Positions 22,262 to 24,192 of a DNA stretch of 64,000 nucleotides are shown here, in pieces. Below the pieces are notes generated by a model, which was not told the DNA's origin, did no database searches, and saw only the letters and a program-made list of their open reading frames with translations. Position 1 is the stretch's first letter. Every line of letters starts with the position of its first letter. The translations under genes and the position numbers were made by a program. Source of the DNA: Dictyoglomus turgidum DSM 6724 (GTDB lineage: Bacteria > Dictyoglomota > Dictyoglomia > Dictyoglomales > Dictyoglomaceae); contig NC_011661.1 in the NCBI RefSeq assembly GCF_000021645.1, forward strand, positions 1 to 64,000, read 5' to 3'.

Positions 22262-23353
22262 TTAGAATCCAATCATTAACTTGCTCTCTGCGTAGAATTT
22301 ACCTCTTACATCTACGCCCCAGAGATTATCTGCACCTGTGAGATTTCCTCTATTGAAGCCGTTAGCGCTATAATCATCATAATCAAAGCCATAGCCTAAG
22401 AGTAAGTCATGGGATACTCCACCACCAAGACTTACAGACCATTTTGCAAATCCACCGACGAGAGTATCTGGACCATTTGCTAAGGCTGCACCAAGAGATA
22501 AGGATCCAACTGGTACAGGAGCAGAAGCAGAAACATAACCAAATATTGTATAAGTTTCAGCTGTATTGTATTCTGCATATACGGTTGTATTGGGTACTAC
22601 TTTGTCAGCAGTAACAGAAACCTTGAAAGTCTTTGCCTGAAGTTTATAATTTCCATTTACAGTCACTTTTCCTTCAACAGCTTTAACTGTTACTCCGATA
22701 AGTTGCTCAGGATTACTTGCAGCCTCACCACATACTGTTAAGGATACAGGAGCTGTAACTGGAGTTACAGATCCACCTACTGCCCAAGCACTTATTGTAG
22801 TATATGTAGCAGCCTTATTAATTAAGCCGTAGAGGGATACGCTTACTGGTGTAGATAAAGAGGCCTCAGCTTTTACAGCAAGAGCCGCATCAGCCCATAA
22901 ATTAGATTTCCACCAGGTATCCGCTGGAGCGTATGCTACAGTCACTTTAACAGGTGCCATATCGGCAACCACACTTATAGCAGTGGAAGATACAACATTA
23001 CCAACCAACCTTGTAGAAAGGCCACCAAAGGTTCCTTTATAGAAGCTCAAAGTTAATGGATTATTGAATAATTTTGCAAAAGTGATTGTTCCAGTTGGAG
23101 ATGCACTCCCACTAAGATCATAAGGTAGATTTACCTTAAAGGTTGCATTCACGCTACCAAGATTAGAGCTTCCAGAAAGGGAGAAAGTTAAGTTTCCAGA
23201 ACCCCAAGTACCCCATGCAAACCCATAACCATCAGAGAAAGGTAGAAATCTTGTATGAAAACCTACACCTATCCAGCTTGATGTACTAACATTAGCAGCA
23301 AATGCAGGAACCACTAAAAGAGCTAAAACTAACAACCATACAAATCTCTTCAT
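22262..23353 (-). CDS. Putative outer-envelope beta-barrel protein
   Basis: The 363-residue protein has a clear signal peptide (MKRFVWLLVLALLVVPAFAA, cleavage after AFA or AFAA). The mature part is rich in Gly, Ala, Ser, Thr and Val with alternating hydrophobic residues, and it ends in Phe (KLMIGF). These are features of outer-membrane barrels. There are no other membrane helices, and only one Cys in the mature region. I do not recognise a specific family, so porin-like or S-layer-like roles are inferences. It has its own promoter, an unusually long structured leader and a strong terminator, which together suggest a heavily expressed single gene. A GGGGGTCAAGG-type ribosome site precedes the ATG. 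Confidence 0.75.
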   Translation of the reverse strand: MKRFVWLLVLALLVVPAFAANVSTSSWIGVGFHTRFLPFSDGYGFAWGTWGSGNLTFSLSGSSNLGSVNATFKVNLPYDLSGSASPTGTITFAKLFNNPLTLSFYKGTFGGLSTRLVGNVVSSTAISVVADMAPVKVTVAYAPADTWWKSNLWADAALAVKAEASLSTPVSVSLYGLINKAATYTTISAWAVGGSVTPVTAPVSLTVCGEAASNPEQLIGVTVKAVEGKVTVNGNYKLQAKTFKVSVTADKVVPNTTVYAEYNTAETYTIFGYVSASAPVPVGSLSLGAALANGPDTLVGGFAKWSVSLGGGVSHDLLLGYGFDYDDYSANGFNRGNLTGADNLWGVDVRGKFYAESKLMIGF

Positions 23354-23502
23354 TTTTCCTTGACCCCCTTAGGATTTTTTTTATAATTTTTTATAACTCA
23401 CTGGTAAGTTTCGAAACCTTACCTTACCAGCCTACTTTTTTGAGTGGCACCTAAAGGTCTTCTCTTCACCTCCTTTCTTGCCACCCAAAAAAGCTTTAAC
23501 TG
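23354..23502 (-). promoter_or_regulatory. Structured 5' leader of the barrel gene
   Basis: The predicted mRNA leader is about 150 bases. Its 5' half folds into a long hairpin (23436-23492): a 14-bp outer stem (TGCCACCCAAAAAA against TTTTTTGAGTGGCA, one G-U pair) and an inner AAAGG/CCTTT stem. The inner loop region carries AAGGAGGTGA (complement of 23466-23475), a near-perfect anti-16S match not followed by a start codon at the usual distance. A second perfect 8-bp stem (CTGGTAAG/CTTACCAG, 23401-23430) follows. It matches no riboswitch class I know. Confidence 0.65.
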
Positions 23503-23508
23503 ATTGTT

Positions 23509-23536
23509 ATTTTACTAAAAATCTTTTTTATGTCAA
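23509..23536 (-). promoter_or_regulatory. Promoter of the barrel gene
   Basis: On the minus strand TTGACA (complement of 23531-23536) is followed after 16 bases by TAAAAT (complement of 23509-23514). Transcription should start near 23502, which gives the long leader described separately. Confidence 0.75.
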
Positions 23537-23592: not shown

Positions 23593-24192
23593 ATGTCCAA
23601 AAGTATTTTAAGTAAAAAACAAAAAGAAGTATTAGACTTTATAACCTCTTTTTGGAAAAAGGAGGGAAGAATTCCCACAGTAAGAGAGGTTTCAAAGGCT
23701 CTTGGCTTAAATTCCTCAGGTTCAGGATACTTCCATATGAAAGCCCTTGTAGAAAAAGGATATCTATCTCAGGATAAAAAGGGCAGATTTTATTTAAGAA
23801 ATCTAATAAATGAAGAAATAATTTATCTTCCCCTTGTAGGGACCATTAAAGCAGGAATTCCCGTAGAATCCCCTGAATATGTAGATGAATATATTCCTGT
23901 TCCTAAAAGCTTTGTAAAAATTCCTGAAAAATCCTTTTTATTAAAGGTTAAAGGGGATAGTATGGAAGGAGCACACATCCTTGACGGAGATCTTATTATC
24001 GTACAAAAGCAAGATATCGCTCAAAAAGGAGAAATTGTGGTAGCACTAAAAGATGGGGAATCTACGGTAAAATTCTTATCAGAAAACTATGGCATCCCTT
24101 GTTTAAAACCCGCAAACCCAAGATATTCTGAAATATATCCTCCATTTAAGATAATTGGAAAAGTAATTGGAGTAATAAGACTTTTCAAATAA
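23593..24192 (+). CDS. lexA: LexA SOS repressor
   Basis: LexA represses DNA-damage genes until RecA filaments trigger its self-cleavage. The 199-residue protein has the winged-helix domain (about 1-70, recognition region VREVSKALGLNSSGSGYFH), the cleavage site A87-G88 in KAGIP, and catalytic Ser123 (GDSMEG) and Lys160 (STVKFL). No ribosome site precedes the ATG, and TATAAT is only ten bases upstream, so the mRNA is probably leaderless or nearly so. It is divergent from the barrel gene. Confidence 0.95.
   Translation: MSKSILSKKQKEVLDFITSFWKKEGRIPTVREVSKALGLNSSGSGYFHMKALVEKGYLSQDKKGRFYLRNLINEEIIYLPLVGTIKAGIPVESPEYVDEYIPVPKSFVKIPEKSFLLKVKGDSMEGAHILDGDLIIVQKQDIAQKGEIVVALKDGESTVKFLSENYGIPCLKPANPRYSEIYPPFKIIGKVIGVIRLFK

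Follow-up and report, generated by a model that had tools for sequence, protein, structure and literature searches.

What could a leader of about 150 nt, carrying a sequence that resembles a ribosome site but has no start codon nearby, do in the mRNA of a surface protein of Dictyoglomus turgidum? We analysed this locus in the window, a stretch of 64,000 nt of the 1.856 Mb genome of D. turgidum DSM 6724. An earlier note made from the letters alone had described two hairpins there, and had proposed an mRNA stabiliser like the ompA leader, a ribosome standby site or a new regulatory RNA. The leader is located on the minus strand between the surface-protein gene and the divergent lexA gene (23593-24192).

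Table 1. Features of the leader, its promoter and the downstream gene (window coordinates).
Feature	Position	Strand	Description
Barrel-like surface protein	22262-23353	-	ORF of 363 aa with a signal peptide and a C-terminal F
True SD of the barrel gene with 5' flank	23362-23373	-	CCTAAGGGGGTC; within an invariant block
Hairpin 2	23401-23430	-	CTGGTAAG with CTTACCAG
Hairpin 1	23434-23494	-	Stem P1 pairs 23479-23494 with 23434-23449
Anti-SD segment	23450-23459	-	GACCTTTAGG; possible partners are GGAGGT in P2 and the true SD
Inner stem P2	23453-23473	-	GGAGGT (23468-23473) with ACCTTT (23453-23458); predicted in 7/7 genomes
16S 3'-tail complement	23465-23478	-	AGAAAGGAGGTGAA; 14/14 columns invariant in 7 genomes; no start codon nearby
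Structured leader upstream of the barrel gene	23354-23502	-	About 150 nt, two hairpins; z -5.5; one copy in 7/7 Dictyoglomaceae genomes
Promoter TTGACA-16-TAAAAT	23509-23536	-	11/12 consensus matches; transcript start likely near 23502, as deduced from the promoter

Structure of the leader

The gene product is barrel-like, judging from its signal peptide, strand pattern and terminal F. No Pfam family matched the protein over cut-off, and its AlphaFold model, with about 20 strands, is of low confidence (pLDDT 48.5). The promoter is the sole promoter-like site on the minus strand near the leader, and its TTGACA and GTAAAATAAC are invariant in 7/7 genomes, so that the hairpins should be transcribed. 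The fold of the leader is more stable than that of all 200 dinucleotide shuffles. No terminator-like site was found on the minus strand inside the leader, where the stem is followed by a run of A; without a terminator stem and T run on this strand, a transcription attenuator was ruled out.

Both hairpins lie where the earlier note had put them, on the minus strand. The 14-bp core that it described is contained in stem P1 of hairpin 1, which comprises 16 pairs including G-U and leads through an internal loop to the inner stem P2, and its second perfect stem is hairpin 2, with 8 perfect pairs (23423-23430 with 23401-23408). Compensatory changes in relatives, the absence of which was to count against the idea, were found in both stems. 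In the six alignable sequences, 96% of the cells of hairpin 1 (P1 and P2) hold standard pairs, against 45-58% when the partners are slid by 1-3 columns, and two pairs have changed on both sides. The seventh sequence, from a genome of the sister genus (G004), was misaligned by MAFFT and was instead taken from a manual reading and from the covariance model; its lower stem has a different sequence and is still perfectly paired. In hairpin 2, all cells are paired, with one compensatory change from U-A to C-G between genera. The covariation draws on 7 sequences, four of them within one genus and several closely related, and thus on few independent changes. The apical loop of hairpin 1 varies in length. 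In hairpin 2, a conserved purine bulge, AAGGnAAG, adjoins a conserved CG in the loop; no role was found for it.

Stem P2 is predicted by folding: its mean pair probability is 0.91-0.98 at 37 °C, dropping to 0.50-0.79 at 75 °C. It is invariant in six genomes and one pair shorter in G004, and since its pairs do not vary they carry no covariation support.

The folds of the minus strand are stronger than those of the reverse strand in 7/7 genomes, G-U pairs are abundant, and the covariance model of hairpin 1 scores 88.2 bits on the minus strand and 17.5 bits on the plus strand. These asymmetries and the G-U pairs indicate that selection acts on the minus-strand RNA, and they argue against a DNA operator.

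Distribution of the leader

A DNA search recovered the leader from D. turgidum and from six relatives, of which three belong to the same genus and three to a sister genus. Promoter and leader occur together, in one copy each, in all 7 Dictyoglomaceae genomes. The covariance model of hairpin 1 gave exactly seven matches, one per genome, with E-values of 3e-8 or better, and no credible copy in 379 other genomes; a single match at E 0.002 per genome, among 386 genomes, is at chance level. A pattern scan of GTDB contigs returned 6 stretches, 2 of them from Dictyoglomaceae; inspection by eye showed no leader stems in the remaining 4. The idea that the same leader might precede other envelope genes did not hold, as the search found no further copy in the D. 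turgidum genome.

The leader has no Rfam match even at E 5, Dictyoglomi-1 included. Together with the compensatory changes and the conservation across two genera, this supports the proposal of a new regulatory RNA, in the form of a cis-acting structured leader in a surface-protein mRNA of Dictyoglomaceae. Dictyoglomi-1 (RF01703) is a structured RNA known only from the Dictyoglomus phylum (PMC2864571). Both RNAs are so far known from this phylum alone, and the leader would be a second candidate of this kind for the Dictyoglomaceae.

A site complementary to the 16S rRNA tail

The most conserved stretch of the leader is AGAAAGGAGGUGAA, with 14/14 invariant columns. Thirteen nucleotides of it, AGAAAGGAGGTGA (23466-23478), are complementary to the 3' tail of 16S rRNA, the 16S genes of D. 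turgidum ending in UCACCUCCUUUCUU as read in its own genome. The earlier note had rightly seen a Shine-Dalgarno-like (SD-like) sequence here with no start codon nearby, and none lies at initiation distance, but the site is longer than described and is not simply open in a loop, its GGAGGU being paired with ACCUUU. Pairing of the site with the 16S tail amounts to -22.2 kcal/mol, a value that none of 408 sampled SD regions reaches (median -10.2); the sample was drawn from the window and 20 further stretches (464 kb, roughly one quarter of the genome), in which starts were chosen automatically. Once the cost of opening hairpin 1 is deducted, a net gain of -13 to -16 kcal/mol is still predicted for 37 °C, and of about -5 to -6 for 75 °C. 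If transcription starts where predicted, the site would be about 24 nt from the 5' end.

The 12-mer GAAAGGAGGTGA has 8 copies in the genome: two antisense 16S ends, one in a CRISPR-like array, four before start codons and one in the leader, which alone is a leader site without a start. The copy in the array (G000:C1:473654-473665, L027; repeat GTTTCAATCCCTTATAGGTACGCTACAAAC) ends a spacer. Further downstream of the leader site, 14-19 nt away, a G/UUG opens short frames that differ by eye in length and sequence between genomes; a leader peptide or upstream ORF was rejected, these frames not being conserved.

A possible competing pairing with the ribosome site of the gene

The strand that closes P2, GACCUUUAGG, has a second possible partner in CCUAAGGGGGUC, the ribosome site of the gene itself, with which it could make about ten pairs. 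The loop strand is complementary to the SD in 7/7 genomes. The anti-SD segment is invariant in 6 genomes and has one U fewer in G004, where the competing pairing becomes a clean CCUUAGG with CCUAAGG. On the other side, CCTAAGGGGGTCAA (23360-23373) is invariant in 14/14 columns; CCUAAGGGGGUCAA around the true SD does not vary, whereas only 2/10 columns just before the SD block and 13/41 columns of the linker are invariant.

At -11.5 kcal/mol, the SD region of the barrel gene is the best partner for the anti-SD segment among 408 SD regions. In the three genomes compared, this segment is the best partner for the SD anywhere in the leader, and the pairing is stronger in the sister genus (-13.4 and -13.5 kcal/mol). 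The SD itself pairs with the 16S tail at -11.4 kcal/mol. The P2 state and the own-SD state lie within about 0 to 2 kcal/mol of each other, with the pseudoknot cost guessed through a duplex initiation term. However, an equally strong upstream partner was reached by 43 of 500 shuffles and by 44 of 394 other genes (9-11%), and for this reason the second pairing is only suggestive.

Leaders in which a pseudoknot sequesters the SD include the SAM-II and preQ1-II riboswitches and the S15 rpsO leader. The Dictyoglomus leader has in common with them a hairpin loop strand able to pair with a downstream ribosome site. It differs in that its pairing is invariant and shows no covariation, in that it is so far ligand-less and in that it matches no Rfam family.

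Candidate functions of the leader

The D. turgidum genome encodes matches over cut-off to RNase J (597 bits) and RNase Y, and has no match to RNase E/G. In organisms lacking RNase E, stabilisation of mRNA by a strong SD that has no start codon is on record (PMC3997798), and in STAB-SD of Bacillus thuringiensis cryIIIA, as cited there, such a sequence stands in the 5' leader. The Dictyoglomus leader agrees with STAB-SD in its extended SD complement, in the missing start codon and in the enzymes of the host, where RNase J and RNase Y are present and RNase E/G gave no match. It is unlike STAB-SD in that the site is part of a conserved hairpin and half of it is paired to an anti-SD strand, which could also reach the true SD; phylum and gene differ as well, and stabilisation is proposed here by analogy.

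The decay enzymes of the host and a stem near the predicted 5' end make 30S docking combined with 5' blocking the best-supported reading. We give a probability of about 0.4 to the leader being a 30S-docking mRNA stabiliser of the STAB-SD type at the 5' end, embedded in a hairpin and possibly also acting as a translational switch. From the sequence, structure, conservation and complementarity of the leader and from the enzyme set of the host, we infer that the 30S subunit would open the weak inner stem P2 through its 16S tail and dock on hairpin 1 without initiating. The docked subunit and the 5'-proximal stem would block entry of RNase J from the 5' end, and the mRNA of this envelope protein, probably an abundant one, would be long-lived as a result. 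With less certainty, docking might free GACCUUUAGG to pair with the own ribosome site and so adjust translation of the barrel gene. Ribosome-docking stabilisers are known from Bacillus-type hosts; if this reading is right, a distant thermophilic phylum, also with RNase J and with no match to RNase E/G, has one too, and its hairpin form might couple mRNA stability to translation. The leader would then also be a small RNA, open to testing, in which the anti-SD strand competes with a 16S-tail mimic. Against it stands that the core of the site sits in a stem, whereas STAB-SD sites are, to our knowledge, unpaired. Besides, protection of the mRNA might need no more than a 5' hairpin, and the comparison comprises only seven sequences, several of them close relatives, in which the P2 pairs do not vary.

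That simpler possibility corresponds to the ompA-like stabiliser of the earlier note. As in E. coli ompA, two hairpins precede an envelope barrel gene, one of them next to the 5' end, and the 5'-end stem is stable, the position of the end being deduced from the promoter; a stem that lies within a few bases of the predicted start, and whose sequence drifts while its pairing is kept, suits a passive 5' hairpin with a loop that resembles a ribosome site only by accident. Protection of the ompA kind is directed against RNase E; the search of the genome for RNase E/G gave no match, and the conserved part of the Dictyoglomus leader is the loop sequence. A 5' stabiliser is plausible; the Bacillus type fits better, because RNase J and Y are present and no RNase E/G match is. 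As a purely passive stem would leave 14 invariant loop bases and an invariant anti-SD strand unexplained, we regard it as very unlikely. Recognition by a regulatory protein or a ligand, for which the resemblance to a ribosome site would be mere coincidence, would account for the long invariant loop, the internal asymmetry and the variable apical loop; it is nevertheless unlikely, given that an unrelated ligand would hardly require a 13-nt match to the 16S tail. CsrA, the obvious binder of GGA loops, has no match (PF02599) in the genome, and a CsrA target leader was rejected on this ground.

Standby sites are usually unstructured. Here the site is in a hairpin, and about 115 nt and a second hairpin intervene before the true start, where the freed hairpin strand would moreover tend to close the true SD. 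The proposed standby role, in which the leader would feed 30S subunits to that start, retains weak support from a strong 16S complement upstream of a moderate SD (-11.4 kcal/mol, sample median -10.2), and we consider it the least probable of these readings.

A translational switch on its own is a tentative alternative, possible although we do not favour it: GACCUUUAGG would pair either with GGAGGU, leaving the own site open, or with CCUAAGGGGGUC in an H-type pseudoknot, closing it, and the balance would be set by the 30S subunit, a protein or a small ligand. It is consistent with the invariance of both strands beyond what an SD needs (UAGG, CCUA) in surroundings that vary, with the first rank of the barrel gene among the sampled SD regions, with two states near balance and with the choice of the anti-SD segment as best leader partner in three genomes. 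Conversely, both sides are invariant and therefore offer no covariation, comparable upstream pairings are not rare, and the SD-like flanks AGAAA and GAA would be superfluous for switching. In a more specific form, which appears doubtful, the switch would sense 30S subunits: free small subunits would bind the mimic of a ribosome site that the 16S tail recognises, and the released anti-SD strand would close the gene's own site. Ribosome supply would then directly tune the synthesis of a main surface protein.

The gene and its neighbours in related genomes

Upstream of the leader, the neighbouring gene is lexA in the genus Dictyoglomus and another gene in the sister genus, by eye an endonuclease IV-like ORF, with two small ORFs in between in one genome (G006). 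As the neighbour differs between the genera, the leader appears to travel with the barrel gene. In G004, the conserved leader promoter seems by its position to fall inside the 3' end of the endonuclease IV-like ORF (L068:7908-8714).

In another genome (G001), the barrel gene is split over two contig ends (L073:1-373 and L074:1-888), and the overlapping parts of the protein differ slightly, which may reflect strain variation or assembly. The mature barrel proteins of G003 (L072:3711-4745) and G004 (L068:8887-10026) are only 28-36% identical to that of the window. Both genomes nevertheless keep the promoter, the leader and the signal peptide (MKKLVWLLVLALLVVPAFA), and the leader DNA of G003 is 92% identical, in contrast to the mature protein. 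It looks as if the surface protein had been replaced, or had diverged rapidly, behind a fixed expression cassette.
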